Below, piece by piece: positions 35,898 to 56,688 of a stretch of 64,000 nt of DNA (its first letter is position 1; each line of letters opens with the position of its first letter). Below the pieces are notes generated by a model. The model saw only the letters and a list, made by a program, of their open reading frames with translations. It did not search any database and had not been told where the DNA came from. This DNA comes from Hyphomicrobiales bacterium (lineage in GTDB: Bacteria > Pseudomonadota > Alphaproteobacteria > Rhizobiales > Rhizobiaceae): the NCBI GenBank assembly GCA_900469625.1, contig UBXV01000018.1, forward strand, positions 630 to 64,629, given 5' to 3'. The position numbers and the translations under genes were made by a program.

Positions 35898-35915
35898 GGT
35901 CGGCCCAAACCTGGG

Positions 35916-36467
35916 ATGAGGAACATGAAGAAGAAGATCAACGTGCGGAAACTCGGCCACATGGTGCTGATGGTCCGCGACATCCACAAGTCCGTCGACT
36001 TCTATACCAATGTCGTCGGCCTGGAGGTCTCGGACTGGATCGAGGACAAGATGGTGTTCCTGCGCGCAGGCAGCGACCATCACGATCTTGCCCTGTCGCA
36101 GCTGCCGGCGGATTCGCCCGATCGTGACGACCTGCCGAAGTATACGAGGCCCGGCCTCGAACACTTCTCCTATCTCGTCGACAGCCTCGAAGACATGGAA
36201 GCTGCCGCCGAGATGCTGCAGGAACGGGGTGTCGAGATCGTGCGCGGCATCGGCAAGCACGGTCCGGGCGCCAATTGCTTCCTCGTGTTCAAGGACCCGG
36301 ACGGTAACAACTGCGAGATCTACTGTGACATGATCCAGGTCACCGAAGAAAACCCGCACACGCCGCAGGTTTGGGAGCGCAACATCGACGCCTTCGACCA
36401 ATGGCGCTTCAAGCGCTTCGTCGTGCCGCCACCGCATCAGGTGGTCAAGGACAAGCAGGGTCAGTGA
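35916..36467 (+). CDS. VOC-family protein, extradiol dioxygenase-like
   Basis: The 183-residue protein has two VOC half-modules: LGHMVLMVRDIHKSVDFYTNVVGL with the first His ligand, and LEHFSYLVDSLEDMEAAAEML with another; FKDPDGNNCEIYCDM gives the final Glu. The set His, His, Glu fits the 2-His-1-carboxylate site of extradiol dioxygenases and related enzymes. A second start at 35925 is equally possible. It lies inside the NMT1-type transporter operon, hinting that it acts on the imported ring compound. Confidence 0.87.
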   Translation: MRNMKKKINVRKLGHMVLMVRDIHKSVDFYTNVVGLEVSDWIEDKMVFLRAGSDHHDLALSQLPADSPDRDDLPKYTRPGLEHFSYLVDSLEDMEAAAEMLQERGVEIVRGIGKHGPGANCFLVFKDPDGNNCEIYCDMIQVTEENPHTPQVWERNIDAFDQWRFKRFVVPPPHQVVKDKQGQ

Positions 36468-36472
36468 TCCCT

Positions 36473-36510
36473 GGAGCGTTTCGGTCCGAACCGGATGACG
36501 GAAACGCTCC
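36473..36510. repeat. Intergenic palindrome, rhizobial type
   Basis: GGAGCGTTTC (36473-36482) pairs perfectly with GAAACGCTCC (36501-36510). Elements built on a GAGCGTTTC palindrome are common between genes in Rhizobium and Ensifer. It stands between the VOC gene and the permease gene and could trim or protect the operon mRNA. Confidence 0.5.
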
Positions 36511-36632
36511 ACCGCACTGCTCTCAGGCATTGCCGACGGAAAACCGATCTGCTTTTCCCGGGAATGCTCCCGCGCGCCGGCGCCAGCCGGCGCGTCTCAC
36601 AACGGATGCCAACTCGCTCTTCGGAGGCCCAC

Positions 36633-37397
36633 ATGCCAGGCGTTAGTTCACGACTTGCCGCCTATAGCCAAGTCGTCTTGTTTTTCGGTGCTTTTCTACT
36701 CTTCTGGGAATATGGCGTCCGATATTTTGAAGTGAAAAGTTACATTCTGCCGCCGATCTCGGCGATCGCCGTCGCCGTCTGGGAAGCGCGCAGCGAGATC
36801 TTCGAGAATTCGATGTACACGCTTGCCGAGGTGCTGATCGGCTTCGGCGCAGCCGTCGTCGTCGGCGTCATGCTCGGCATGGTCGTCTATGTCTCGCCCT
36901 TTGCCCAGCGCACCATCTATCCGCTGGTGACCGCGCTGCAGACGACGCCGAAAAGCGCGCTTGCGCCGTTGATGATCGTCTGGTTCGGCTATGGCTTCAT
37001 CTCCAAGGTTGCGATGGCGTTCCTGTTTGCCTTCTTCCCGATCGTGGTCGCAACGCTCGGCGGATTTGCCGGCACGGCGAAGAACCTCGAGGAACACTTC
37101 CGTGCGCTGAATGCCGGCCCGTGGCGCACCTTCACCACGCTCAGGCTGCCGAGCGCCCTGCCGAGCTTCATCGACGGGTGTCGCGTGGCGATGCCGCTGG
37201 CGATGATCGGTGCGATCATCGGCGAACTTGTTGGCTCCGAGCGCGGCCTCGGCAACCTGATCATGCTGGGAACGGCCTCGACGCGCACCGACCTCGTCTT
37301 CGGCTGCATCATCGTGATCACCCTGATCTCGCTGGCTCTCTATGCGCTGATCGAGTTTGCGGCCAAGTCCGTCTGGTGGCGGGGAATTCAGGTATGA
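36633..37397 (+). CDS. ABC transporter permease, SsuC/TauC/ThiX type
   Basis: The 254-residue protein has six predicted membrane helices and the BPD_transp_1 EAA-type loop (KNLEEHFRALNAGPWRTFTTLRLPSALPSFIDGCRVAMPLAMIGAIIGE region). It forms the membrane channel of the NMT1-type importer. ATG 36633 follows GGAGG at five bases; the frame is open upstream but that part contains the palindrome. Its stop overlaps a possible ATPase start at 37394. Confidence 0.9.
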   Translation: MPGVSSRLAAYSQVVLFFGAFLLFWEYGVRYFEVKSYILPPISAIAVAVWEARSEIFENSMYTLAEVLIGFGAAVVVGVMLGMVVYVSPFAQRTIYPLVTALQTTPKSALAPLMIVWFGYGFISKVAMAFLFAFFPIVVATLGGFAGTAKNLEEHFRALNAGPWRTFTTLRLPSALPSFIDGCRVAMPLAMIGAIIGELVGSERGLGNLIMLGTASTRTDLVFGCIIVITLISLALYALIEFAAKSVWWRGIQV

Positions 37398-37420
37398 ACA
37401 TTTCCGTTCGGGAGGAAAAG

Positions 37421-38251
37421 ATGGTGTCGACAGCCTCGGCCGCAGCGCCGCAATCAGTCAACGTGGCAGACATGGGTTTGAAGATGACGGCGGAGCCGGC
37501 CGCCAACCATATCGAGGCGCGGGGCCTCAACAAGACCTTCGGCTCGTTCAAGGCGCTCGAAGACATCGATTTCGAAATCAGGAACCAGGAGTTCGTGTCG
37601 GTGCTCGGCCCGAGCGGCTGCGGCAAGAGCACGCTGCTGCGTATCGTCGCCGGCCTCATCCCTTACGAGAGCGGCTCGGCGACGATCAAGGGCGAGGCGG
37701 TACGGGCGCCGCGCCCCGACGTCGGCGTGGTCTTCCAGACCAACAACATGCTGCCGTGGCTGACGGTGCGCCGCAACGTCGAACTCGGTGCGCGCATCCG
37801 CAACATGCCGGCGGGCGCCCGCGATGCCGCCGTCGACAAGATCCTCGACGTGCTGTCGCTGACCAAGTTTGCCGATGCGCATCCGCATCAGTTGTCCGGC
37901 GGCATGCGCCAGCGCGCATCGATCGGCCAGGCGCTGGTTCTCGATCCGCAGATCCTGCTGATGGACGAACCCTTCGGCGCGCTCGATGCGCTGACGCGCG
38001 ACAAGCTCAACGTCGAATTGCTGCGCATCTGGCAGGAATCGCGCAAGACAGTGATGTTGATCACCCACAGCATCGCCGAAGCCGTGTTCCTCTCGGACAG
38101 GGTTCTGGTGATGGCAGACCGCCCCGGCAAGATCGTCGAGGAAGTGACGATCGACCTGCCGCGCCCGCGCAATGCCGCCACCACCCGCGCCATGCCGAAG
38201 TTCGGCGAATACGTCGCCTATCTCGGCAAGGTCATGGGCGTCGCCAATTAA
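37421..38251 (+). CDS. ABC transporter ATP-binding protein, SsuB/TauB/ThiY type
   Basis: The 276-residue protein has Walker A GPSGCGKST, the signature LSGGMRQR, Walker B ILLMDEPFGALDA and the switch His in LITHSIAEAVFLSDRV. It powers the NMT1-type importer. ATG 37421 is chosen because GGGAGG stands five bases upstream; ATG 37394 overlaps the permease stop (ATGA) and would add nine residues. A strong hairpin follows the gene at 38355. Confidence 0.93.
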   Translation: MVSTASAAAPQSVNVADMGLKMTAEPAANHIEARGLNKTFGSFKALEDIDFEIRNQEFVSVLGPSGCGKSTLLRIVAGLIPYESGSATIKGEAVRAPRPDVGVVFQTNNMLPWLTVRRNVELGARIRNMPAGARDAAVDKILDVLSLTKFADAHPHQLSGGMRQRASIGQALVLDPQILLMDEPFGALDALTRDKLNVELLRIWQESRKTVMLITHSIAEAVFLSDRVLVMADRPGKIVEEVTIDLPRPRNAATTRAMPKFGEYVAYLGKVMGVAN

Positions 38252-41436: not shown

Positions 41437-42555
41437 TTAACTTGCGACCGCTTCGACGATCCGGCGGCTGGCCGAGACGATGTCGGTGTCCTGCAGCAAG
41501 GCGCCGCCGATCAGGTACATGACGTCGTTGCCGTAGGCTTCGCGCATCTCTGGCACCCGGCCGAGATTCATGCCGCCGCCAGGAGCCGGGACGATGGCTT
41601 TCGGGCCGCCCATATCGACCGCGCAGGCCTTGGCGATTGACTGGCATTCTTCGCGGGTAAGGCCGAAGCGGCCGCCGAAATTCGGATAGATCGCCGCATC
41701 GGCGCCCATCAGGCGCTGCAAGGCGCCGTAGAAGCAGCGATGCGAAAAGCCCGTATCCGGCGAAACGACATTGGCGCCCGAAAACGCAGGGTGCGAGACG
41801 ATCGGCAGGGTGAAGCCGGGATCGCAGGCGAGCGCGTGGATGGCGTCATAGCCGGCAAGGGCAGGCGAGATCATTACTCCGCCGGCGCCGGCCTCCTGCG
41901 CCATCGTTGCCCGCTCGAACAGTTCTTTTGCCGATGCAGTAATGTTCGGCACGAAACTCGTCCGCCCGCCACTCTTTGCATTGGCTTCGCCGACTGCATC
42001 GACGCAGGCGGCGAGGCGCTCGGCAAAGGGTGATGTCCGCTGGTCGACCAGCCCATGATCGTCCTTGACGAAATGCATGCCGCCGAGCGCGAAATCATGC
42101 GCGCGCCGGGCAAGCTCGGCTGAAGACAGCCCGACCGGTTTGATTGCCGACATCAACAGAGGTTGCGCGCCGATGCCGGCCCTTTGCCGCAAGCCGGCAA
42201 TGCCATGCTTCGGGCCGGGGCAAAGGGCGAGAATGCCTGCGGACAGGCCAATGTCCTCGACCTTCAGGCCCGGCTTGATCGAGCTGTTGCCGAAGACGAT
42301 GTTGAGGAACTGCAGGAAGTCGCCGCCGACGTCGTCCTCGCTGTAGGAGATGGTGGCGAGATAACCGGGCCGTCCGTCCGGATCTTTCGCCAGCGCCTCG
42401 AGTTGGCCGAGGATTTCGTCCTCGACATATCCTTTCGGCACGACGTCCCTCGGGATCTCGACGGTCTGTTCGAGGGCGATATCGAGCGCCCTTGCGCGTG
42501 CCTCCGCCTCGTCGGCGGCCCTGACATAATAGCTGACGGTAAACCGTGGAGCCAT
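41437..42555 (-). CDS. RubisCO-like protein (form IV)
   Basis: The 372-residue protein has the RubisCO fold: PGPKHGI (compare GPPHGI), SAIKPVGLS with Lys139 at the place of catalytic Lys175, HFVKDDHGLVDQ with Lys164 and Asp166 at the places of carbamylated Lys201 and Asp203, and PAPGGGMNLGRVPEM in the phosphate loop. Lys177 is replaced by Val141 and Glu204 by His167, and loop 6 is not conserved, so it cannot fix CO2. RubisCO-like proteins act as enolases or isomerases on methylthioribulose- or apionate-type sugar phosphates. It is the last gene of the mtnK-mtnA-transketolase operon; its ATG overlaps the upstream stop (TGATG). Confidence 0.93.
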   Translation of the reverse strand: MAPRFTVSYYVRAADEAEARARALDIALEQTVEIPRDVVPKGYVEDEILGQLEALAKDPDGRPGYLATISYSEDDVGGDFLQFLNIVFGNSSIKPGLKVEDIGLSAGILALCPGPKHGIAGLRQRAGIGAQPLLMSAIKPVGLSSAELARRAHDFALGGMHFVKDDHGLVDQRTSPFAERLAACVDAVGEANAKSGGRTSFVPNITASAKELFERATMAQEAGAGGVMISPALAGYDAIHALACDPGFTLPIVSHPAFSGANVVSPDTGFSHRCFYGALQRLMGADAAIYPNFGGRFGLTREECQSIAKACAVDMGGPKAIVPAPGGGMNLGRVPEMREAYGNDVMYLIGGALLQDTDIVSASRRIVEAVAS

Positions 42556-43556
42556 CAGAGCGCCTCCGCCTTCTGCGCCGAATGCACGTGATCGAGACGG
42601 ACCTCGGTCAGTTCGTCCTCGCCGATTTCGAGCGACCTGCCGGTCAGCTCCTCGATTGCGGCTACAAGCGCGCCGGCGTCGAGGCCATACTTCTTCATCA
42701 GGTACGGCTTCGAGGCGCCATGGGCAAAGGTGTCGTTCAGGCCGAGACGTTTCAGGCGGACGCCCAGTCCCTCCTCGGCGAGGATCTCGGCTACGATCGA
42801 ACCAAGCCCGCCGATGATGGTGTGGTTTTCCAGGGTGACGATGCCCTTTTTCCCGCGCGCGGCCTTGAGCAAGCCGTCTCGGTCGAAGGGCTTCAGCGTC
42901 GAGGCGTGCAGATGATGAAGCCCGATGCCGCGCGCCTCGATCGGCTTTGTCGCGCGTAGCGCCTCCTCGGTGCAGACACCGGAGCTGACGACGAGGATGT
43001 CGTCGCCTTCCGAAAGCGTGCGCAGCTTGTTGAACGCGAATGGCGCCGAGAACAGCCGGGGGACTTCGCCGCGCAGGATGCGGACATAGACGGGCCCGTC
43101 GACGGCGTCTGCAACCTCAAGGACAGTCTCGACCTCGGTCGCGTCCCCGGTTTCCAGGATCGTCATGTTCGGCACGGCGCGCAGCACTGCGATGTCCTCG
43201 ATCGCCTGGTGTGTGATGCCGCCGGGCGTGGTGATGCCAGGCAGGAAGCCCATCAGGCGCACCTTGCGGTTGGAATAGGCGATCGAATTGATCAGTTGGT
43301 CATAGGGGCGCCGGTAGAGGAACACCGAGAAGGTGTGGATGAAGGGCCGATAGCCCTGCATGGCAAGCCCGCCGGCAAAGGAGAGCATGTTCTGCTCTGC
43401 CATCCCCAGTGACAGGAACTGCTCGGGATGCCGGTCGCGGAAGCCGTCGACCTCGCAGGAGGACGTGAGGTCGGCCGAAAGGCAAAGCACTTCCGGGCGC
43501 GCAGTCGCGAACGCCTCGAAGGCACCAGCATAGGGGCGGTTGACGATTTCGACCAT
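42555..43556 (-). CDS. Transketolase, C-terminal subunit (split enzyme)
   Basis: The 333-residue protein covers the pyrimidine-binding and C-terminal domains of a transketolase. LSLGMAEQNMLSFAGGLAMQGYRPFIHTFSVFL carries the Glu that activates the thiamine diphosphate (Glu54), and TPGGITHQAIEDIAVLRAVPNM contains the substrate-phosphate His region. It starts two bases after the N-terminal subunit and overlaps the RubisCO-like gene by one base. Split transketolases often act on unusual sugars rather than in the pentose phosphate cycle. Confidence 0.92.
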   Translation of the reverse strand: MVEIVNRPYAGAFEAFATARPEVLCLSADLTSSCEVDGFRDRHPEQFLSLGMAEQNMLSFAGGLAMQGYRPFIHTFSVFLYRRPYDQLINSIAYSNRKVRLMGFLPGITTPGGITHQAIEDIAVLRAVPNMTILETGDATEVETVLEVADAVDGPVYVRILRGEVPRLFSAPFAFNKLRTLSEGDDILVVSSGVCTEEALRATKPIEARGIGLHHLHASTLKPFDRDGLLKAARGKKGIVTLENHTIIGGLGSIVAEILAEEGLGVRLKRLGLNDTFAHGASKPYLMKKYGLDAGALVAAIEELTGRSLEIGEDELTEVRLDHVHSAQKAEAL

Positions 43557-43558
43557 GG

Positions 43559-44494
43559 TCAGGCCCCTTCCATTTCGTTCGGGCTGATGCCCAGTTCGAC
43601 AGCAAGCGCCGCCTGCATCTCAAGCCTTTCTTCCGCACTCTTGAAGCGTACGTAGTGAAGGCGTGGAAAACGCTTCTTGAGGAAGTTCATGCCCTGGAAC
43701 GGCGATGTGTTGGCGAGAATGATCAGCGGCTTGCCCGGCTCGGCGCTGTCTGCAGCGTTGCGCATGGCTTCAAGGTCGTGCCCGTCGATCGACCGGCACG
43801 TCGCGCCGAAGGCGGCAACCCGCCCGGAAAGGTCGCCGAGATCGAGAACCGAGGACATGGCGCCGTCGCATTGCTGGCGGTTGACGTCGACGATCACGCG
43901 GATGTTGTCGATGCCATGATGGGCCATGGCCGCCAGGCACTCCCAGGTCTGGCCCTCCTGGAATTCACCGTCGGACATGTAGACCCAGACCTTGCCCGGC
44001 TCATTGCGCTTCTTGCGGGCGAAGGCGACGCCTGCGGCCATCGAAAGCCCCTGGGCGAGCGAGCCGGTCGTTACCTCCATACCCGGGCTGTGCTCGGCGC
44101 CGATCATCTCGACCGAGCTGCCGTCCTTGTTGAAGTGGTCGAGCGCGTGCTCGTCCATGCGGCCGGCCTCGATCAGCGCGCAATAGATCACCAGCGCATA
44201 ATGCGCCGGAGAGATGAAGAGGCGATCGTAGTCCGGGGTTGCCGGCCCATGATAGCCGGCGCCGGTAAATGCGTCGGGATTGTCGGCCGAGGGAACGCCG
44301 CGAAACGGCAGTGGCACTTTCGGCAAGGTCGGTTCGCCGAGCTTCAGGAACTCGTTATAGAGCAGCGCGAGACTTTCGGCGGCCGAGCACGCCTGGCTCA
44401 GGTAGCCGCCGTTGTTCTTCATCGTGTGAAAGAAGACGCGGCGGCGAATGCCGAGCGCGATTTCTTCCGTGGTCTTCTGGTTGGTCAGGCTCAC
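43559..44494 (-). CDS. Transketolase, N-terminal subunit (split enzyme)
   Basis: The 311-residue protein is the thiamine-diphosphate-binding half: NNGGYLSQACSAAESLALLY, AEHSPGMEVTTGSLAQGLSMAAG, and the cofactor motif SDGEFQEGQTWE (174-185) ending with Asn205 in VDVNRQQ. The usual GDG reads SDG, as in several split transketolases. Start is GTG 44494 with AAGGAGC eight bases upstream. It lies four bases after mtnA. With the next gene it should form a heteromeric transketolase that transfers a two-carbon ketol unit. Confidence 0.92.
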   Translation of the reverse strand: MSLTNQKTTEEIALGIRRRVFFHTMKNNGGYLSQACSAAESLALLYNEFLKLGEPTLPKVPLPFRGVPSADNPDAFTGAGYHGPATPDYDRLFISPAHYALVIYCALIEAGRMDEHALDHFNKDGSSVEMIGAEHSPGMEVTTGSLAQGLSMAAGVAFARKKRNEPGKVWVYMSDGEFQEGQTWECLAAMAHHGIDNIRVIVDVNRQQCDGAMSSVLDLGDLSGRVAAFGATCRSIDGHDLEAMRNAADSAEPGKPLIILANTSPFQGMNFLKKRFPRLHYVRFKSAEERLEMQAALAVELGISPNEMEGA

Positions 44495-44498
44495 GGGG

Positions 44499-45593
44499 TC
44501 AGCTCCTTTCCGGAAACAGCGCTTTGAGGCCCTGAGGCGACGCCGTGGCGACGCCGCGCTCGGTGATGAGGCCCGTGATCAGCCGCGCCGGCGTCACGTC
44601 GAAGGCCGGGTTCGCAGAAGGGCTACCTTCCGGCGAGACGCGGACCGAGATAACAGTGCCATCGGGGCCGCGCCCCTGGACGAAACTCACTTCGTCACCG
44701 GTGCGCTCTTCGATCGGGATTTCCTTGACGCCGTCCTTGACCGTCCAGTCGATGGTCGGGGAGGGCAGCGCCACATAGAAGGGTACATCGTTGTCGCTGG
44801 CGGCGAGCGCCTTCAGATAGGTGCCGATCTTGTTGCAGACATCGCCGTTGGCCGTGGTGCGGTCGGTGCCGACGATGACCATGTCGACGGCGCCGTGCTG
44901 CATCAGGTGACCGCCGGCATTGTCGACGATCAGCGTGTGCGGCACGCCATGGCCGTTCAATTCCCACGCGGTCAGCTGCGCACCCTGGTTGCGCGGCCGG
45001 GTCTCGTCCACATAGACATGCACGGGAATACCCGCCTCGGTCGCCATGTAGATCGGTGCCGTCGCAGTTCCGTAATCGACGGTCGCGAGCCAGCCGGCAT
45101 TGCAATGGGTGAGGATATTGACCGGTTCGCCGGGCTTCTTCGTCGCCGCGATCTCGCGGATGATCTTCAGGCCATTGGCGCCGATCGCCCGGTTGAGCTC
45201 GACGTCCTCCTCGGCGATCTCGCCAGCGCGCCGGTAGGCGGCCTCGGCGCGCTCGTCGACGGGCAGGGGCCGCAGGAACTGCCGCATGGCATCGAGCGCC
45301 CAGCGCAGGTTGATCGCCGTCGGCCGCGTCTCGTTGAGCTCCTCCCAGACCGCGTCGAGATGCCTGTCAGACGGATCGTCCGCCATGGCGATCGCGATGC
45401 CATAGGCGGCGGTGACCCCGATGAGCGGCGCACCGCGCACCCACATGTCGCGGATGGCGACGGCGACATCGGCCACCGTCTTCAGCGTGACGATCCGGAA
45501 CTCGTGCGGCAGCCAGCGCTGGTCGATGATGTCGACCGAGCGGCCGTCGGCGTTGAGCCAGATCGTATGGTAGTGCTTGTCTCCGACTTTCAC
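44499..45593 (-). CDS. mtnA: Methylthioribose-1-phosphate isomerase
   Basis: MtnA converts methylthioribose 1-phosphate to methylthioribulose 1-phosphate. The 364-residue protein has [26 protein letters not shown] with catalytic Cys164, and [19 protein letters not shown] with catalytic Asp244. Start is GTG 45593, which overlaps the mtnK stop (GTGA) with AGGAG upstream; the longer frame is antisense-free but is just mtnK read in another frame. Related isomerases also accept 5-deoxyribose 1-phosphate, so the substrate range is not settled. Confidence 0.95.
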
Positions 45594-46861
45594 GAAAGTG
45601 TCTCCTGCTGAAGCCGTTGCGCCGTGGCGCGAATGTCCCTGAGGCTCGCAATGCGATCCCGGTTGACGGCGAGATGACGTCCGAGCTTCAGCGCCTTGCT
45701 TTCGCACCGGGCGCGGCGGCTGAGGTCGTCGATGGTTTCGAAATCGGCATTGTGGGCAAGGCCGAGGATGCGCCTGAGGATCTCGACCCCGGCAAAGCCA
45801 AGCATCTCGCGGTAGATTTCATCGAGAACGATGGCCAGCGCCTGCTCGGAACCGAACGGATCGTCCCTGTCTTCGAACAGGCTTGCCTGGTAGAGGATGC
45901 CTTTGCGTTCGCTCCGCCACAGAGCCGAAAACTCGTCACAGAAGGTCTCCCAGATCGTGTCGACGGTATCCAGCAGGTAGGCGCGCATCCGGTCGCGTTC
46001 GCCGGCGGCCGCCTCGTGACCATCCTGCGAGAAGTAGCTCATCCAGAAATTGGCGAGCAGCATGCCGACATCGAAGCTGATCGGACCGTAGAAGGCGAAC
46101 TCCGGATCGATGACGCGCGTCTCGTCGTCGGTGACCATGACCGAGCCGGTGTGCAGGTCGCCGTGGCAGAGGGTTTCCGCCTTGGCGGAAAAGATGTGCT
46201 TCAGCCGCTGGGCCTCGACCTTGAGGTCACGGTCGCGACGCAGTTCCTCGACCAGGCCGTCGAGATGCGGGCTCGTATGCCGGTTCATCTCCGCCTCGAA
46301 ATAGGGATCGGAGAAGACGAGGTTTTCGGTGATGTCGCAGAGCTCGACATTGTCGGCGAAGAGGGCGAGGTCGGCCTTCTTCTCGCGCGTCGGCATTGCG
46401 AGGTCCGAGCCGCGAAAGAGCGTGCGGGCGGTGAAGATCCCGAGGTCGCGCCCGATCTTCGGCGGCATGCGCCCCGCAATCAGCGCACGGCGCAGGATCA
46501 CGTGCGGCGTCAGATATTCCATGATGATCATCGCCTGCTCGGCGTCGAAGAACAGGATGTCCGGGACCATGCCGGGATCGCGCGCCGCCTGGCGGATGAG
46601 GGCATGATATTCGAAGAACGAGCGCTTCAGGGGCAGCGGCCAACGCTCGCCGACGAGCCTTACATAGGGGAGCGCCTGCTTGACGATGGCAGCACCTTTC
46701 TCGCCCGTGACGATGAAGACGAGGTTGAGGTTGCCGTCGCCGACCTCCTTGACCTGCCAGCGGCCATGGTCGCTGCCGATCCTGTCGCAAAGGGCTGTAT
46801 TGCCGCTCAATCTCGATGGCAGCGTTTCGGCGCTCAGTGCCTCGAAAACGTGCTTGTCCAT
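45590..46861 (-). CDS. mtnK: Methylthioribose kinase
   Basis: MtnK phosphorylates methylthioribose at C1 with ATP. The 423-residue protein has the N-terminal lobe [13 protein letters not shown] (nucleotide loop) and [19 protein letters not shown], the catalytic loop [12 protein letters not shown] (Asp235) and the metal site [15 protein letters not shown], all typical of MtnK in the choline-kinase-like fold. AGGAGGAACC precedes the ATG. It is the first gene of the leftward operon mtnK-mtnA-transketolase-RubisCO-like protein and is divergent from the ABC importer. Confidence 0.95.
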
Positions 46862-46940
46862 ATGGTTCCTCCTGTCGGCATGACCGGCCTTCGCCGCTCC
46901 TCGTCATGCTGTCGTGGCCCATAGGTAATTCGTCATTCTG

Positions 46941-46967
46941 TCAAATGTCAATCGCCTTGACATTTGA
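46941..46967. promoter_or_regulatory. Perfect 11-bp inverted repeat, candidate SorC operator
   Basis: TCAAATGTCAA (46941-46951), five bases, and TTGACATTTGA (46957-46967) are exact inverses. The site lies midway between mtnK and the divergent importer genes, so one regulator could control both. Similar TGACAT and GTCAAAT words appear before the SorC-type gene at 51759-51792. Confidence 0.65.
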
Positions 46968-47006
46968 TGGATGACCATCCTAACCTGCCTTCATTGGGAG
47001 GAGAGC

Positions 47007-48530
47007 ATGAGCGAACAAGCAGTGTTTCGCATCGAGGGCGTGCGCAAATCCTTCGGGCCGATACCGGTCCTGAAGGGCGTCGATCTCGAATTGCGCAAGG
47101 GTGCCGTCACGGTGCTGATGGGGGCCAACGGCGCTGGAAAGTCGACACTGGTGCGCATCCTCAGTGGCGTCTACGCCAGGGATGCCGGAGATATGCTTCT
47201 CGGCGATCACGCCTTTGCGCCGGCAACGCCGGCCGAGGCGATCCGGGCCGGCGTGGTGACGGTTCACCAGAACATCAATGACGGCGTCGTCGCCGACCTT
47301 GATGTCGCCACCAATCTGACGCTCGACCGGCTGAACGGCCGCGGCGCGCGCCTCTTCTTCAATCCGCGCCGTGTCCGGCGCGAGGCGGCCGTTGTCGCCG
47401 CCCGCATGGGCCTTGCCATCGATCTCTCAGCCGATATCAACGACCTGACGCTGGCCGACCGGCAGATGGTGGCCATTGCCCGCGCCATGGCGCACGAGCC
47501 CGAGGTGCTGATCCTCGACGAGCCAACCTCGTCGCTGTCGAGCGCGGAGGCCGATCGGCTGTTCGAACTCCTCGACATGCTGAAAGCCCGGGGCGTTGCC
47601 ATTCTCTATATATCGCACCGGATGTCGGACATTCGCAGGCTCGCAGACAGTATCGTCACGCTGCGCGACGGGCGCATAACCGGCCGCTTCGAAGGGGCGG
47701 ATCTGGATTATGAAGGTGCCGTCAACGCCATGCTCGGGCAGAAGATTTCCGCAGGCGCCGTCACCGTGCGCGACGGTTCCGGCCCGATCTTTTCGGTGAA
47801 GGGCCTGCGGCTGACGGAGACGTCGCGGCCGTTCGATCTGGCGCTCGGCGATGGCGAAATCGTCGCCGTCACCGGCCTCGTCGGCGTCGGCAAGACGGCG
47901 CTGGCCGAGACGCTGTTCGGCGCGCGGCCGCCGAAGGCCGGTCAGATGACGCTCGACGGCGTGCCCTATCGTCCGCAATCGACGGGCCAGGCGATTGCCA
48001 AGGGCGTGTTTCTGGTGGCCAAGGATCGTGCCGACAGCGGCATCGTTCCGGACTTCAACATTTACGAGAATATCAGCCTGCCGTTCCTGAAGCGGCTGTC
48101 GCGCTTCGGCATATCGAGCCGGCGGGCAGAGCGGGTAAAATCGCGGGCGCAGATCGCAGCGCTAGGCGTCGTCTGCCGCAGCGAGCGTGACGAAATGCAC
48201 ACATTGTCCGGTGGCAATCAGCAGAAGGTGATGGTCGGGCGCTGGCTTTCCGAGCCCTCGCGTCTCCTCATCCTCGACGAGCCCTTCCAGGGCGTCGACA
48301 TAGCGGCCCGCCGCGATATCGGCGCCAAGCTGCGCGCGTCGGCTTCCGGCCGCGCCACCATCGTTTTCCTGACCGAACTCGACGAAGCCTTCGAGATCGC
48401 CGACCGCATTCTCGTGATGTCGGAACACACTGTAGTCGGCGAGCATCGTAACGCCTCGGTCGACGTCGAGCGGCTCCTGCAGGAGATCGCCGGTCAACAT
48501 CATCAGCAGGACCAGCCCCATGAGCAGTGA
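47007..48530 (+). CDS. ABC transporter ATP-binding protein, RbsA type (two ATPase domains)
   Basis: The 507-residue protein has two nucleotide-binding domains. The first has Walker A GANGAGKST and Walker B VLILDEPTSSLSSAE; the second has GLVGVGKTALAE at the Walker A place, signature LSGGNQQKV and Walker B LLILDEPFQGVD. The second Walker A is degenerate (GKTA), as is common in sugar importers. ATG 47007 has GGGAGGAGA upstream. It drives the importer that is divergent from mtnK, so methylthioribose or a related pentose is the likely cargo. Confidence 0.93.
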   Translation: MSEQAVFRIEGVRKSFGPIPVLKGVDLELRKGAVTVLMGANGAGKSTLVRILSGVYARDAGDMLLGDHAFAPATPAEAIRAGVVTVHQNINDGVVADLDVATNLTLDRLNGRGARLFFNPRRVRREAAVVAARMGLAIDLSADINDLTLADRQMVAIARAMAHEPEVLILDEPTSSLSSAEADRLFELLDMLKARGVAILYISHRMSDIRRLADSIVTLRDGRITGRFEGADLDYEGAVNAMLGQKISAGAVTVRDGSGPIFSVKGLRLTETSRPFDLALGDGEIVAVTGLVGVGKTALAETLFGARPPKAGQMTLDGVPYRPQSTGQAIAKGVFLVAKDRADSGIVPDFNIYENISLPFLKRLSRFGISSRRAERVKSRAQIAALGVVCRSERDEMHTLSGGNQQKVMVGRWLSEPSRLLILDEPFQGVDIAARRDIGAKLRASASGRATIVFLTELDEAFEIADRILVMSEHTVVGEHRNASVDVERLLQEIAGQHHQQDQPHEQ

Positions 48531-49584
48531 ACAGATGAAACCCGCGGCACCCGTCGCCTCAACGCTGCCGGCGCCACCAAGCGCCGCGTTCAGCCTGCGC
48601 GACGTCGCGATCAAATACGGCTTTCTCGTTCTTCTGGCCGGGCTGGTTGTCTATTTCTCGTCGGTGACGAGCGGCTTTTCCTCGCCGCAGAGCGCCGTCT
48701 TCATCCTTCAGTCCGTCTCGATCACCGGCATCCTGGCGCTCGGCGTGACCGCCACGCTCGTCGTCGGTGGCTTCGACCTGTCGATCGGCTCGGTCGCAAC
48801 CACGTCGATGATGGCGTCATCCTACGTAATGGTGGTGATGGGCGGCGATGCGTTGACGGCAACGCTCGTCTGCCTGGCGATCGGCGTTCTCGTCGGCCTG
48901 ATCAACGGCGTCATCATCGTCTATATGCGCGTGCCGGACCTGCTTGCGACGCTCGGCATGATGTTCCTGCTGCTCGGCCTGCAGCGCATCCCGACCGAGG
49001 GACGCTCGATCGCCGCCGGCATGACGCTTCCCGACGGATCGGTGGCTACCGGCACCTTCAGCCCCGCCTTCCTGGCCCTCGGCCGTCACCGCTTCGACCT
49101 GATCCTGCCGAACCTCGTGCCGGTCTCGGTCGTGGTGCTGATCGTGCTCGCGGTCGTGATCTGGTTCTTCCTCGAATATACCCGCTTTGGACGGATGATG
49201 TATGCGGTCGGCTCCAACGAGCGCGCCGCCGGTCTCGCGGGCGCGCCGGTCAATGCCTACAAGATCTCGGCCTATGTCATTTCAGGCGTCTTCGCCTCGA
49301 TCGGCGGCATTCTGCTCGCCGCGCGCCTCGGCCGCGGCGACATCGCCTCGGGCAACAACCTGCTGCTCGACGCGGTCGCAGCCGCCCTCATCGGCTTTGC
49401 CGTGCTCGGCGCCGCCAAGCCGAATGCGTTCGGCACGGCGATCGGTGCGCTCTTCGTCGGCATCCTGCTGCAGGGCCTGACGATGATGAACGCGCCCTAT
49501 TACACCCAGGATTTCATCAAGGGCGCCGTTCTCGTCATCGCCCTGATCTTCACCTTTGCGCTCTCGAAAAGAGGCAAACGCTGA
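48520..49584 (+). CDS. ABC transporter permease, RbsC type
   Basis: The 354-residue protein has about ten hydrophobic segments and the RbsC-family motifs TATLVVGGFDLSIGSVA and GSNERAAGLAGAPVNAYKISAYVISG. It forms the membrane channel of the pentose-type importer. Its start overlaps the ATPase gene by 11 bases. Confidence 0.93.
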   Translation: MSSEQMKPAAPVASTLPAPPSAAFSLRDVAIKYGFLVLLAGLVVYFSSVTSGFSSPQSAVFILQSVSITGILALGVTATLVVGGFDLSIGSVATTSMMASSYVMVVMGGDALTATLVCLAIGVLVGLINGVIIVYMRVPDLLATLGMMFLLLGLQRIPTEGRSIAAGMTLPDGSVATGTFSPAFLALGRHRFDLILPNLVPVSVVVLIVLAVVIWFFLEYTRFGRMMYAVGSNERAAGLAGAPVNAYKISAYVISGVFASIGGILLAARLGRGDIASGNNLLLDAVAAALIGFAVLGAAKPNAFGTAIGALFVGILLQGLTMMNAPYYTQDFIKGAVLVIALIFTFALSKRGKR

Positions 49585-49636
49585 CGGGAAAACCCCGGAC
49601 GCGGACAACAAACGTTCACCAGTGGAGGAGACTGAA

Positions 49637-50680
49637 ATGAACTTTACACGCAGAGCAATGGGCAAGCTGGCGCTTGGCCTTGCCGGAACCGTGGCGTTCG
49701 CCACCGCATCCTTTGCCGCCGACATGCCGAAGCCCTTCGACAAGCCGGGCGACGTCAAGATCGCGCTCGTGCGCTATCTGTCGACCGGCGACTTCTTCCA
49801 GTCCTATCTTGCCGGCGTGGAGGCGCAGGCAAAGGCACTCGGCGTCCAGCTTCAGGTGCTCGACAGCCGTCAGGATGCTGCACTTCAGGCCGACATGGTC
49901 GACCAGGCGATCGCGCTCGGCGTGCAGGGCATCATCATCCAGCACGGCCTGACGGAATCGATGAAGGAAGCCGCCCAGCGCGCCGTCGATGCCGGCATCA
50001 AGGTCGTCGCCTTCGACGTCAACGTCGAAAACGAGAAGATCCCGCAGGTCGAGCAGTCCGACCGCGACCTTGCCCGCCTTGCCCTCGAGCAGGCGATCAA
50101 GGACAACGGCGACAGCTTCAAGGCCGGCTACGTCTACGTCGCCGGCATCGCGCCGCTCGACCGTCGCGACGAGACGTGGAAGGAGTTCAAGGCCAAGTAT
50201 TCGGGTATCAACGAGATCTCGCAGTTCGGCACGATGGACAACCCGATCGCCAACTCGGTCGCCAACCAGGCGCGCTCGGTCATCTCCGCCAACCCTGACA
50301 TCACGGTGATGTTCGCGCCCTATGACGAGTTCGCCAAGGGCGTGAAGATTGCCGTCGACGAGGCCGGCCTGTCGCAGAGCGTGAAGATCTATTCTGCCGA
50401 CATCTCGACCTCGGATATTGCCGCGATGCGCGAGCCGGATTCCGCCTGGGCGGCAACCGCTGCCACCAACCCGGCCGTGGTTGGGCAGGTTTCGGTCAGA
50501 ACGCTTGCCATGCTGCTTGCCGGCGAGGATCCGGGCCGCAGCGTCATCGTGCCGCCGACGCTGATCACCCAGAAAGACCTGAACGATCAGGACATCAAGA
50601 ACATGGAAGAGCTCGGCACCAAGCTGCCGCAGTTCGCCCATGCGGATGTCGCCATGCCGGCATGGATGCCAAAGCCCTGA
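49637..50680 (+). CDS. ABC transporter substrate-binding protein, RbsB type
   Basis: The 347-residue protein has a signal sequence (RRAMGKLALGLAGTVAFATASFA) and a Peripla_BP_4 fold: KIALVRYLSTGDFFQSYLAGVEAQAKALG, VQGIIIQHGLTESMKEAAQRAVDAGIKVVAFDV. ATG 49637 has GGAGGAGACTG upstream. It is the third gene of the importer and is followed by a clear terminator. Ligand is inferred from the mtnK/mtnA neighbours. Confidence 0.93.
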   Translation: MNFTRRAMGKLALGLAGTVAFATASFAADMPKPFDKPGDVKIALVRYLSTGDFFQSYLAGVEAQAKALGVQLQVLDSRQDAALQADMVDQAIALGVQGIIIQHGLTESMKEAAQRAVDAGIKVVAFDVNVENEKIPQVEQSDRDLARLALEQAIKDNGDSFKAGYVYVAGIAPLDRRDETWKEFKAKYSGINEISQFGTMDNPIANSVANQARSVISANPDITVMFAPYDEFAKGVKIAVDEAGLSQSVKIYSADISTSDIAAMREPDSAWAATAATNPAVVGQVSVRTLAMLLAGEDPGRSVIVPPTLITQKDLNDQDIKNMEELGTKLPQFAHADVAMPAWMPKP

Positions 50681-50706
50681 TCGTACAGCTCTCGGACAAA
50701 GAAGGC

Positions 50707-50733
50707 GGGGCGGTCGAAAGGCCGCCCCTTTTG
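50707..50733 (+). terminator. Intrinsic terminator of the importer operon
   Basis: GGGGCGG (50707-50713) pairs with CCGCCCC (50722-50728), and the stem is followed by TTTTGCATTTT. It lies 27 bp after the binding-protein stop. Confidence 0.8.
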
Positions 50734-50753
50734 CATTTTGTCGATATGACTGG

Positions 50754-51734
50754 TTAGGCGGATGCCGCTTGCACCCGGCGAAGGCCGTCGCGCTTCCAGC
50801 GGTCCATCACCCGGCGCGCCATCGATGTTGTGATCACCAGATGCGAGGCGAAACCGCCCTTCAGTGCGGCCAGCAGCGGTTCGAACTTGCTGTCTTCCTG
50901 GACGACCAGCATGCGCTTCTTGATCGCGCGGATCGAACCGAGATCGGCGGAAATGCAGCGCCGATTATGAGCGCAGTTTATCCATTGCCCGTCGCCGTCG
51001 ATCAGTTGCCCGGCGATGACGCCGACGGCGCCTTCTTCGCCCATGCGGTGCATTTCCTCGGCGCTGAGCGCGCCGCATTTGACGAGGTGGCTGTCGTCTT
51101 CGATGCCACCAACGGAATAGAGCGCCAGATGACAGTCGGCGATGGTCGACAGTTGCTCGCGGATCACCGGCTCGCCGCGAAGCTCGTCTGCCAGCCGTTC
51201 GGACGACAGCACCAACGGTGCATAGAAGTTGATACCTTCGGCGTTGAGCCGGCGCGCGATTTCCGTTGTGCACTGGTCCGGCCGATAGGAATAGGGTGCG
51301 CCGAGATTGCCGCAGAGCTGGACCACGGTCACGCCGCGCAGGTCGGCAAAGGGCATGACGTCGGCAATATGGTAGACCGTGCGTCCCCAGGCGACGCCGA
51401 CGCGGTCACCCTTGTTGATCAACTCGAGGAAGACCGACGCGGCCAGCACCGGCATTTCCGCCGTCGGGTCCATCGCCTGCCGGTCCTCCGGCACGATCCA
51501 GACCGATGTGACGCCGGTTGCATCCTCGAGTTCGCGCGCCAGCACGTCGTCGGTGAAAAGCTCGGTCGACGTGCTGATATTGACGATCCCGGTTTCGCGC
51601 GCCCGCCTGAGATAGGTTGCTACAGAAGCGCGGGATATCTCCAGTTTCTGTGCGACTTCGTCCTGCCGCAAGCCGTGGCTGTAATAGAGCCAGGCGGCCT
51701 TGTGCATGATCTGGTCGGTGTTGCGGATGGGCAT
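50754..51734 (-). CDS. SorC/DeoR-type sugar-binding transcriptional regulator
   Basis: The 326-residue protein has an N-terminal helix-turn-helix (GLRQDEVAQKLEISRASVATYLRRARETGIV) and a SorC sugar-binding domain (DRVGVAWGRTVYHIADVMPF, LCGNLGAP). Such regulators sense phosphorylated sugars. AAGGATC precedes the ATG. It converges with the importer operon and is the obvious regulator of the mtnK and importer units; the inverted repeat at 46941-46967 is the best operator candidate. Confidence 0.9.
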   Translation of the reverse strand: MPIRNTDQIMHKAAWLYYSHGLRQDEVAQKLEISRASVATYLRRARETGIVNISTSTELFTDDVLARELEDATGVTSVWIVPEDRQAMDPTAEMPVLAASVFLELINKGDRVGVAWGRTVYHIADVMPFADLRGVTVVQLCGNLGAPYSYRPDQCTTEIARRLNAEGINFYAPLVLSSERLADELRGEPVIREQLSTIADCHLALYSVGGIEDDSHLVKCGALSAEEMHRMGEEGAVGVIAGQLIDGDGQWINCAHNRRCISADLGSIRAIKKRMLVVQEDSKFEPLLAALKGGFASHLVITTSMARRVMDRWKRDGLRRVQAASA

Positions 51735-53803: not shown

Positions 53804-54853
53804 ATGACCATTGCAGCCACCACGGCTAGGCACGCCACGTTCTTGTCCGGCGCATCGTCCGACGCTTTTTCCGGTCATCCCGGCTATCGGCGCATGTTCG
53901 CGCCGGAGCAACTGACGCTCGGGATCTTCCTGCCGCTGCGCTTCTATCGCGGCGACATGAGCGTGCTGGAAGGGCAGGCGGATCTCGTCACCGAGATCGA
54001 CCGGCGCGGCTTTGCCGCGGTCTGGGTGCGCGACGTGCCGTTGTTCGATCCGAATTTCGGCGATGCAGGCCAGCTGTTCGACCCCTTTACCTACCTGTCC
54101 TATCTTGCGGCCCGAACCGAAAAGGTCGCGCTTGCGACGGGAAGTGCCGTCTTTTCCCTGCGCCACCCGATCGATCTCGCCAAGGCCGCAACCACGATCG
54201 ATCGGCTGTCCGGCGGGCGTCTCGTCCTCGGCATCGCTTCCGGCGATCGGCCGGTCGAATTCCCGGCCTATGGGCTCGACATGGATGGCCGCGGCGAACG
54301 TTTCGCCGAGACGGTCTCCTATTTCCGCGAGCTGATTGCGCCGGGGCGCCCGGCGATCCGCTCGAGCCTCGGGACCCTTGAGGGTGTCGACTTCCTGCCG
54401 AAGCCTGCCACGGGACGAATTCCCCTTGTAATCACCGGCTCGAGCCGCCAGTCGCCCGCATGGGTGGCCGAACACGCGGATGGCTGGCTGACCTATCCGC
54501 AGCCGACGCATACGCCGGAAGGTCCGAAGCGGTTGGCGCAAAACATCCGTGCCTGGCGAAACCTGATTCCGGGCGGTGGGTTCCGGCCGCATATGACCAA
54601 CGAGTGGCTGGATCTCGTCGACGATCCCGATTTCCCACGCACTCCGCTTCGCGGCGGGTTTGTGCTGAAGACAGGACGCAAGGGGCTGATCGATCTTCTT
54701 GGCGAATGGCAGCTTGCCGGCGTCAACCATGCCGCACTCGGCATGCAGTTCGCGGAACGCCCGGCCGCGGAGATCATCCAGGAACTTGCCGAGGAGGTGC
54801 TGCCGCTGTTTCCTTCGCTGGAGGGGCCGGTGCCGCTGTCGGCGAAATGGTAA
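53804..54853 (+). CDS. Luciferase-like (LLM class) flavin-dependent monooxygenase
   Basis: The 349-residue protein starts GHPGYRRMFAPEQLTLGIFLPLRFYRGDM and has AAVWVRDVPLFDPNFGDAGQLFDPFTYLSYLAA, RTEKVALATGSAVFSLRHP and GGRLVLGIASGDRPVEFPAYG, the pattern of a distinct bacterial luciferase-type family. It uses FMNH2 and O2, which the flavin reductase encoded by the overlapping next gene can supply. The oxidised substrate is not known; together with the glutathione transferase a xenobiotic or sulfur compound is possible. Confidence 0.88.
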   Translation: MTIAATTARHATFLSGASSDAFSGHPGYRRMFAPEQLTLGIFLPLRFYRGDMSVLEGQADLVTEIDRRGFAAVWVRDVPLFDPNFGDAGQLFDPFTYLSYLAARTEKVALATGSAVFSLRHPIDLAKAATTIDRLSGGRLVLGIASGDRPVEFPAYGLDMDGRGERFAETVSYFRELIAPGRPAIRSSLGTLEGVDFLPKPATGRIPLVITGSSRQSPAWVAEHADGWLTYPQPTHTPEGPKRLAQNIRAWRNLIPGGGFRPHMTNEWLDLVDDPDFPRTPLRGGFVLKTGRKGLIDLLGEWQLAGVNHAALGMQFAERPAAEIIQELAEEVLPLFPSLEGPVPLSAKW

Positions 54854-55461: not shown

Positions 55462-56688
55462 TCACGTCTGGCAGGAGCGGGCGTCGACCGGCAGCACCGT
55501 CGCCTCGCCGTCGGCGTGGCGCAGCGTGAAGTGGTCAAAATTGGCAATCGAGGCGCAGGAGTGGTTGGGGAAGACCCGCACCCGGCTGCCGAGCGGCAGG
55601 GGGCGCCCAGAGAAGGGAACGAAACCATGCTCTTCGGAGAGCCGCTCGAGCGTCCACATGCCCGCTTCGCTGTTCCCCTCGGCGCTGACCACCGTCCCGA
55701 AGCCGGCGCCGCCCATGCCGTGGGCGCCGCGATCGGAACTCATCGATTTCGAGCCGGCGTCGAGGATGAAGTGAGTGTCGTTGGACGCGACGACCCGGGC
55801 GACGACGGAAAGCGCTAAATCGTCGGCGGTGCAGACGCCGAGCCGAAGTGCTGTTCCGTCAAGAAAGACGTAATTGCCGGGACGGATGCAGTCGACTGCA
55901 GGGGCCACCGGGGCGCCAAGGCAGGTCGGCGTCGCGCCGACGGAAAGGCAGTCGACGGCGATGCCGCGCGCGCGCAGCTTGCCAGCGAGACCGATGAGAT
56001 CAGCCGCTTCGTCCCGGGCGACCTTTGCCAGGGCCTCCGGCCCATGGGCTGCATAGGAATGACCGGCATGCGAGAGCAACCCGGCAAGGCGCAAGCCATC
56101 GGCGGCCGCGATCCGGGCGCACAGTTCAAGGGCTGCCGGATCGTTCGGCTTGACGCCGACACGCCCGAGGCCGACATCGACCTTGAGGAATACGCCAATC
56201 TCGACGTCGTGGTGGCTCGCGGCGGCCGAAAGCGCATCGACGCCCGCTTCGCTTGCCGCAATCGTGCGCAGCTTCGTGCCGCGCGCCTTCACCACGGGCA
56301 ACAGGCGGTCGAGCGACTGCGCCTTCACGATGGGATAGGCGAGGATGATCGCGGGTATGCCGGCTTCGGCAAAGACCAGCGCCTCGCTCGGCTTGGAGGC
56401 TGTAATACCAAGTCCGCCGAGCGCCAGCTGCTGTCGGGCGATGTGGACGCTCTTATGCGTCTTCACATGCGGGAACATTGCGGCGCCGGCCGCATCGGCG
56501 CGGTGCTGCATGGCGAGCATGTTGCGCTTGAGTCGCGCTTCGTCGACTTCGATATAGGGTGTGGGGCGTTCCGCCGCCGCCGGGCGCCAGAAGCCTGAGG
56601 CCGAGGGAACGGTGGAACCCATGGTGATGTCAGTGGTCGCGTTGCCGGCAGCGGTTGGCGCCGCTACCGTCACTTCGGAAGTGGTCAT
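55462..56688 (-). CDS. D-threonine aldolase/D-serine dehydratase-like PLP enzyme
   Basis: The 408-residue protein has the fold-type-III alanine-racemase barrel with the PLP lysine in MFPHVKTHKS (Lys76) and the C-terminal zinc site FPNHSCASIANF (His and Cys). This is the DSD1/D-threonine-aldolase family, which removes ammonia from D-serine or cleaves D-3-hydroxy amino acids. An alternative start at 56622 would drop 22 poorly structured residues. It lies 39 bp after the dipeptide-type ATPase genes on the same strand, so it is probably co-transcribed with them. Confidence 0.88.
   Translation of the reverse strand: MTTSEVTVAAPTAAGNATTDITMGSTVPSASGFWRPAAAERPTPYIEVDEARLKRNMLAMQHRADAAGAAMFPHVKTHKSVHIARQQLALGGLGITASKPSEALVFAEAGIPAIILAYPIVKAQSLDRLLPVVKARGTKLRTIAASEAGVDALSAAASHHDVEIGVFLKVDVGLGRVGVKPNDPAALELCARIAAADGLRLAGLLSHAGHSYAAHGPEALAKVARDEAADLIGLAGKLRARGIAVDCLSVGATPTCLGAPVAPAVDCIRPGNYVFLDGTALRLGVCTADDLALSVVARVVASNDTHFILDAGSKSMSSDRGAHGMGGAGFGTVVSAEGNSEAGMWTLERLSEEHGFVPFSGRPLPLGSRVRVFPNHSCASIANFDHFTLRHADGEATVLPVDARSCQT

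Follow-up and report, generated by a model that had tools for sequence, protein, structure and literature searches.

Methylthioadenosine (MTA) arises as a by-product when polyamines are made, and its recycling in bacteria living without oxygen is still being worked out. A gene cluster on contig UBXV01000018.1 of a Hyphomicrobiales bacterium, within the 64,000-nucleotide stretch of DNA that was analysed (the window), raises the question of how a methylthio sugar could be broken with the help of a transketolase. Five leftward genes, encoding MtnK, MtnA, the N half (TKN) and C half (TKC) of a split transketolase and a RubisCO-like protein (RLP), diverge from an importer of the RbsA/C/B type, after which a SorC-type regulator is placed. 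A sequence-only reading of this DNA had proposed that the transketolase takes the place of the cupin enzyme that elsewhere acts on the RLP product. Comparison of sequences and gene neighbourhoods indicates that the transketolase probably consumes the RLP product, which would be a ketose 5-phosphate lacking the hydroxyl at C1, and that the genes most likely form an inducible pathway acting on a 5-modified ribose, foremost 5-methylthioribose, that is taken up or made inside the cell.

The gene cluster and its RubisCO-like protein

The sequence together with family scans confirmed the gene positions, order and junctions of that reading: mtnK and mtnA overlap by four bases, four bases separate mtnA from TKN and two separate TKN from TKC, and TKC overlaps the RLP gene by one base. 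All five genes lie on the minus strand. S-methyl-5-thioribose kinase (mtnK, 45590-46861; NCBIfam TIGR01767, 484.5 bits, cut-off 275) and S-methyl-5-thioribose-1-phosphate isomerase (mtnA, 44499-45593; TIGR00512, 441.6 bits for the longer listed open reading frame (ORF), cut-off 279) both exceed their equivalog cut-offs. The mtnA start is a GTG internal to the longer ORF and gives the four-base overlap with mtnK. TKN (43559-44494; PF00456, 63.1 bits) is the part that binds thiamine diphosphate (ThDP), TKC (42555-43556) matches PF02779 and PF02780 with 99.6 and 74.5 bits, and the RLP (41437-42555) matches PF00016 with 83 bits.

The RLP exceeds no NCBIfam cut-off and exceeds the Pfam cut-off; the nearest named RLP, on an Ensifer canadensis plasmid record, is 93% identical. 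Its nearest solved relative was 3qfw (246 bits, the next best solved RLP reaching 152 bits), to which it is closer than to MtnW, OiaX or RubisCO. Its origin in Rhodopseudomonas palustris, its length and the label "protein 2" on 2qyg suggest that 3qfw is RLP1 of that species, and we treat it as such. The core motifs common to cupin-linked RLPs (KP, K[DE]DHG, GRF and GGM) are present, and the invariant columns of a 13-sequence alignment were K144 and P145, K169, D171-G173, G286-F288 and G318-M320. By these comparisons and by the tree described below, the protein appears to belong to the 5-methylthioribulose-1-phosphate 1,3-isomerase branch (DeepYkr type), in agreement with the earlier proposal of an isomerase linked to MtnK and MtnA. 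RLP1 is described as acting on 5-methylthioribulose 1-phosphate to form two 5-phosphates, those of 1-(methylthio)xylulose and 1-(methylthio)ribulose, in a 3:1 ratio, and as making the former both in vitro and in vivo (PMC5893883; here and below, citations refer to the available excerpts of each paper). The sole other RuBisCO-family match in the source genome was considered as a rival isomerase and rejected, because it is the OiaX of apionate breakdown (785.2 bits, cut-off 700). It lies on contig C19 with an OiaK-like kinase (L001:1078-3639; 452.8 bits, below cut-off), so that apionate breakdown is represented in the same genome.

The absence of mtnD and of a cupin gene, which the sequence-only reading had noted for the cluster, was followed through the genome. 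A search for the acireductone dioxygenase MtnD (PF03079) gave no match in the source genome and matched 5 of 14 control genomes; in a family sample it matched 17 of 394 genomes, every match being partial (no more than model positions 86-150 of 157) and five exceeding the cut-off. No RLP-type cupin is encoded in the cluster, and the cupin of locus L051, used as query in a search that included no positive control, found none in the source genome; in a BLAST search this query matched 13 of the class loci described below, itself included. That the genome carries a classical salvage set at another site was rejected on the ground that MtnD was not found genome-wide, MtnC not having been searched for. 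The class II aldolase of the dihydroxyacetone phosphate (DHAP) shunt is likewise not present in the cluster. Aldolase_II gave four matches in the source genome, and for the three that were scanned no family listed at E ≤ 1e-20 was an MtnB model (of the 102 families for L230, 25 were listed). An aldolase-dehydrogenase fusion of the PRK08324 type was found on contig C35, adjoining a SorC-like gene.

Transketolase as the partner across genomes

In the sample of 394 family genomes, the RLP was found in 46 (E ≤ 1e-30) and TKC in 51 (at least 56% identity; 51 of 57 matched genomes, six weaker matches of 41-46% identity being left out). Both were present in 45 genomes, the RLP alone in one and the transketolase alone in six (Fisher p = 2e-51, by a test that ignores shared descent). 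TKC lay at most 300 bases from the RLP gene on the same strand in 42 of the 46 RLP loci, window included, and mtnK and mtnA both occurred in the fetched stretch of 41, indicating that the cluster is more than chance. Three further family genomes with an RLP carry the transketolase elsewhere in the genome. The match of the remaining one (L106) lacks the first 40 residues, and this RLP looks like a remnant. At that locus (L106:9237-10244) there is no mtnK, mtnA or transketolase in the stretch; other matched members of the genus carry the full cluster.

Beyond the family, 17 of 385 genomes in a class sample matched the RLP, the source genome being one. At the other 16 class loci, a cupin stands beside the RLP in 13 and a transketolase in two (L049, L050), and the contig of L053 ends 84 bases past the RLP. 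A tree of 115 rows, built by a quick method with no bootstrap and a long outgroup, placed the 13 cupin-linked class RLPs and that of L053 in one group (Shimodaira-Hasegawa-like approximate likelihood ratio test, SH-aLRT, 100). A single change in this tree separates cupin from transketolase partner, a count that left out partnerless rows and the cupin-match loci L145 and L182.

The partnership was also surveyed in 80 titled RLP loci, the best 80 matches kept from the GTDB species collection. A transketolase lay no more than about 2 kb from the RLP in 56 of them, a share that is biased upward by a query alignment led by a transketolase-linked RLP and by the keeping of the best 80. At these 56 loci, which come from 12 named phyla, with four lacking a phylum assignment and many being metagenome bins, the C half was at most 150 bases from the RLP (measured between alignment ends) in 46 and at most 2.1 kb away in the other 10, and the transketolase preceded the RLP in 55. 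Clostridium ljungdahlii (L207) carries importer, mtnK, mtnA, both transketolase halves and RLP consecutively, and Alicyclobacillus sp. ALC3 (L210) carries mtnK through RLP. The 24 titled loci without transketolase comprise two with a cupin match (L145, 50%; L182, 37%), four with an FGGY-like kinase before the RLP and several that end near the RLP. A transketolase in the place of the cupin is thus seen in many lineages, as had been proposed for the window, and the association of the two proteins, judged from conserved neighbourhood, is not incidental.

No accessory gene was recurrent beside TKN-TKC-RLP among 139 neighbouring ORFs scanned, for which the 25 commonest families were listed; these were part of 188 ORFs chosen mechanically in the 56 transketolase loci, and many may not be genes. 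The families matched at least three times were IF-2B (that is, MtnA; seven), SBP_bac_1 (five), SBP_bac_8 (four), the SorC-type Sugar-bind domain (four) and, with three matches each, phosphorylase, chemotaxis receptor, HAMP, class II aldolase and TetR. This result bears on an alternative in which the transketolase transfers the methylthio unit to an acceptor aldehyde, yielding a longer methylthio-ketose for other enzymes. Such a transfer is the normal action of a transketolase, and the replacement of Asp469 by Gly described below may loosen the choice of acceptor, as an E. coli D469T enzyme is described as accepting propanal (PMC10787763); it would call for a further step, however, for which the scanned neighbours contain no recurrent gene, and we consider it very unlikely. 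A gene family was seen near the transketolase and RLP in L154, L160, L185, L192, L200 and L203, its L203 member being a thiolase of the LsrF type (505.5 bits, cut-off 297).

The transketolase donor pocket and the proposed cleavage

Pocket residues, numbered by E. coli transketolase, were compared in an alignment of 100 two-half sequences: 44 from L049-L109 and the window, seven from L119-L125 and 49 from the 56 titled loci, the other seven, in which one half was missing from the clusters, being left out. The window transketolase has the ThDP/Mg motif and the catalytic residues Glu411 and His473, and its donor pocket is altered (H26 to Y and H100 to M in TKN, H461 to F and D469 to G in TKC); the protein aligns without gaps from position 100 to the GxE anchor. 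Throughout the alignment, position 100 is Met in 90 sequences and Leu in nine (one gap), position 26 is Tyr in 98 (two gaps), and positions 461 and 469 are Phe and Gly in all 100. Glu411, Phe434, His473 and Arg520 are kept in every sequence, Ser385 in 99 and His66 in 89 (Gln in nine, gaps in two). Arg358 of E. coli, which differed between two alignments, and His261, which falls in a gap, were not used. The transketolase of the same genome with the strongest PF02779 match (L112) has His26, His100, His461 and Asp469, and Phe occupies position 100 in both a protein of this genome resembling 1-deoxyxylulose-5-phosphate synthase (DXS; L115) and E. coli DXS.

These four losses count heavily against ordinary ribose use, with the transketolase as extra pentose-phosphate capacity, because another transketolase of the same genome has kept all four residues. 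The importer is of the Rbs type, and a gene group of the RbsD/FucU type occurs in five stretches (the L083 member was scanned); a ribose operon, however, needs neither MtnK, nor MtnA, nor an RLP of the isomerase branch, and this explanation, being highly improbable, was rejected.

Donor binding by transketolase is attributed to H66, H100, G114 and H473, with H100 corresponding to Phe in DXS, and activity with pyruvate is raised in the Geobacillus enzyme by H100F and more so by H100L (Saravanan 2017, cited in PMC7661550). H100L and D469T are both present in an E. coli variant made for pyruvate and propanal (PMC10787763). Since pyruvate is a donor without the hydroxyl concerned, the pocket appears to have shifted towards what the proposed substrate requires, and the natural change at position 100, compared at the level of sequence, resembles the engineered one that dispenses with the donor hydroxyl. 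This hydroxyl is also missing from the ketoses 1-(methylthio)xylulose 5-phosphate and 1-deoxyxylulose 5-phosphate.

The pocket would therefore also suit 5-deoxyribose, which had been named at the outset as an alternative substrate: the RLP would form 1-deoxyxylulose 5-phosphate, and the transketolase would split it into glyceraldehyde 3-phosphate and an acetaldehyde unit. A methyl group, too, would suit the Met or Leu found at position 100, and homologues of MtnK and MtnA handle 5-deoxyribose as well (PMC6079011). Locus L081 carries a TRZ/ATZ-family deaminase-like protein and a nucleoside phosphorylase before the RLP, the former matching the 5'-deoxyadenosine deaminase model better than the MTA/S-adenosylhomocysteine (SAH) deaminase model (321.5 and 214.5 bits, both below cut-offs), and L083 has a nucleoside phosphorylase and a relative of the same deaminase-like protein. 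Splitting 1-deoxyxylulose 5-phosphate, however, would presumably drain an isoprenoid precursor, and both the RLP branch and the neighbourhood of L085 point to sulfur instead. This locus brings together RLP, TKC, TKN, a purine nucleoside phosphorylase that belongs to the inosine/guanosine type rather than being an MTA phosphorylase, mtnA and a molybdopterin oxidoreductase. The oxidoreductase, which is beside mtnA, falls in one cluster with two S/N-oxide reductases of the BisC family, from L119 and L123, and with genes of L122, L124 and L125, and a BisC-type gene adjoins the same transketolase in these five loci (the L119 and L123 members were scanned, the others assigned by similarity). We regard 5-deoxyribose as an unlikely substrate. 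The transketolase pairs of L119 and L122-L125 are close to the RLP-linked ones and have no RLP nearby; the pair of L119 is followed by genes for an FGGY kinase, a zinc alcohol dehydrogenase and an AraD-like protein, relatives of which occur in L122 and L124.

The chemistry of MtnK, MtnA and RLP is established. For 5-methylthioribose, the importer would take up the sugar, MtnK would form the 1-phosphate, MtnA would produce 5-methylthioribulose 1-phosphate and the RLP would shift the ketone to give 1-(methylthio)xylulose 5-phosphate. On our best reading the split transketolase, with a pocket that no longer reads the C1 hydroxyl, would then attack C2 through ThDP and cleave between C2 and C3, releasing glyceraldehyde 3-phosphate and retaining a methylthio two-carbon unit. 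Phosphoketolase loses hydroxide from such a bound unit. Because a methylthio group beside the carbanion would be a far better leaving group, the bound unit may lose methanethiolate to leave acetyl-ThDP, and hence acetate or acetyl phosphate; we put this release step forward as a tentative prediction. The interpretation of the sequence-only reading is partly supported, by the RLP branch, by the failure to find MtnD or a cupin, by the transketolase in the cupin's place and by the pocket change; its chemistry stands as a proposal.

The same cleavage could also end with protonation of the bound unit, which would leave as 2-(methylthio)acetaldehyde and so give, in a different way, the aldehyde that the DHAP shunt produces. 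This compound is a known and handled product of the aldolase route (PMC5893883), and a gene group with an aldehyde dehydrogenase member (L066) occurs in 7 of 71 stretches; its release, however, would make the RLP and transketolase redundant with a single aldolase, and we judge this ending to be rather doubtful.

Several observations weigh against the pathway as a whole. Besides the disregard of shared descent and the upward bias already mentioned, nine of the 46 family loci also carry, within the stretch, a full-size gene of the aldolase-dehydrogenase group (at least 550 aa), which could cleave the sugar without an RLP, a point that also bears against release of the aldehyde by the transketolase; shorter or cut pieces bring the group to 24 of 46 loci, some of them possibly other dehydrogenases. 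The RLPs of L145 and L182, loci where a cupin match is present and the stretch contains no transketolase, sit among transketolase-linked rows of the tree, making the fit of partner to branch imperfect. Four Chloroflexota RLPs (L143, L144, L155, L174) follow a kinase named FGGY-like by sequence appearance and have no transketolase in the stretch. Finally, RLP-free relatives (L119-L125; L126-L128, L130) share much of the altered pocket, with Leu at position 100 in L128 and Ile in L130, so that the pocket is support and not proof, and is not specific to the pathway. The group of L143, L144, L155 and L174 also has RbsC-like permease genes beforehand.

The preferred pathway, ending in cleavage of 1-(methylthio)xylulose 5-phosphate, can be set beside two described ones. 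The MTA-isoprenoid shunt of Rhodospirillum rubrum and R. palustris has the same kinds of MtnA and RLP, with the same 1-(methylthio)xylulose 5-phosphate expected; here, however, the split transketolase stands in place of its cupin methylsulfurylase, MtnK and the importer replace its MtnP, and the product, if our reading is right, is not its 1-deoxyxylulose 5-phosphate. The DHAP shunt (MtnK or MtnP, MtnA and a class II aldolase) shares the first two steps and, also without oxygen, yields a triose phosphate and a two-carbon piece from a 5-modified ribose, but RLP and transketolase are used here and glyceraldehyde 3-phosphate is expected instead of DHAP. DXS likewise has a hydrophobic residue (Phe) at position 100 and a C2 unit without the hydroxyl, and its model was the second-best NCBIfam match of TKC, whereas the present enzyme is split, of transketolase type and expected to run in the breaking direction. 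Apulose-4-phosphate and sulfofructose transketolases are also encoded by two genes. So is the split transketolase of Carboxydothermus, which nevertheless keeps His100 (PMC7661550) where Met or Leu is found here.

A full-text literature search, with most subscription journals outside its scope, found no published pairing of RLP and transketolase in this role, in line with the earlier remark that the route was not known to have been described. The nearest precedent found is a promiscuous transketolase reaction suggested for 5-deoxyadenosine salvage in Methanocaldococcus jannaschii; it is a similar transketolase-like cleavage of a 5-deoxy sugar phosphate but a different reaction, from 5-deoxyribulose 1-phosphate to lactaldehyde and methylglyoxal, and the available text names no RLP (PMC8102628). 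In their excerpts, a proposal of corrinoid methionine salvage for other anaerobes does not mention transketolase (PMC10418091), transketolase in Calvin-cycle operons is treated with RLPs left out (PMC7895386), and RLP and transketolase are mentioned separately (PMC8307300).

A further methionine-salvage route independent of oxygen and glutathione, in which an RLP and a dedicated split transketolase eliminate the methylthio group in a phosphoketolase-like manner, is conceivable on these grounds, although we lean against it in this complete form. If true, the route would yield glyceraldehyde 3-phosphate and methanethiol together with either acetyl phosphate or acetate; it would extend over at least 12 phyla, with the well-studied cupin route as a narrower variant; and methanethiol release would have a bearing on volatile sulfur in soils and sediments. 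The analysis offers a concrete partner for the RLPs of many phyla and a transketolase subfamily naturally changed at a residue that engineers alter by hand; should the chemistry be confirmed, the pairing would also represent a new means of recycling methylthioribose.

Regulation, import and neighbouring genes

The divergent gap between mtnK and rbsA contains a palindrome, TGTCAATCGCCTTGACA (46946-46962, no strand), predicted to be an operator. TGTCAA-N5-TTGACA occurs at this one place in the whole 6,541,281-base genome and nowhere in a reversed control. In a survey of 30 of the 46 family loci, TGTCA-N5..9-TGACA was present in 24 of the 25 mtnK/rbsA gaps assessed, many of which come from close kin. 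Judged by its position and conservation, the palindrome is probably the operator for both divergent transcripts, and the SorC-type regulator would be expected to bind it and to regulate through it. No Rfam family scored above its gathering score anywhere in the window in a search for riboswitches. The regulator (50754-51734, minus strand) is a sugar-sensing protein of the SorC/DeoR type (PF04198, 168.5 bits); the DHAP shunt of E. coli also has a sugar-type repressor, MtnR, called a member of the DeoR family (PMC12632272).

On the plus strand, family scans identified the importer as a sugar ABC system with an ATPase of the RbsA/AraG type (46971-48530), a permease of the RbsC type (48520-49584; PF02653, 136 bits) and a sugar-binding protein of the RbsB type (49556-50680; PF13407, 114.1 bits), upholding, with the Sugar-bind match of the regulator, both identities given earlier. 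The listed TTG start of the binding protein is probably too early, the true start being an ATG further in. The source genome also encodes an MTA/SAH nucleosidase (TIGR01705, 359.8 bits, cut-off 152.2), so that MtnK could act on sugar made inside the cell as well.

About 3 kb from the cluster (34899-38251) lie genes for an NMT1-type binding protein, a permease and an ATPase that resemble importers of sulfonate, taurine or nitrate. On the other side, the window encodes a luciferase-like flavin monooxygenase (53804-54853) and a protein distantly like the 3-hydroxy-D-aspartate aldolase BhcC (55462-56688; 124 bits, cut-off 690).

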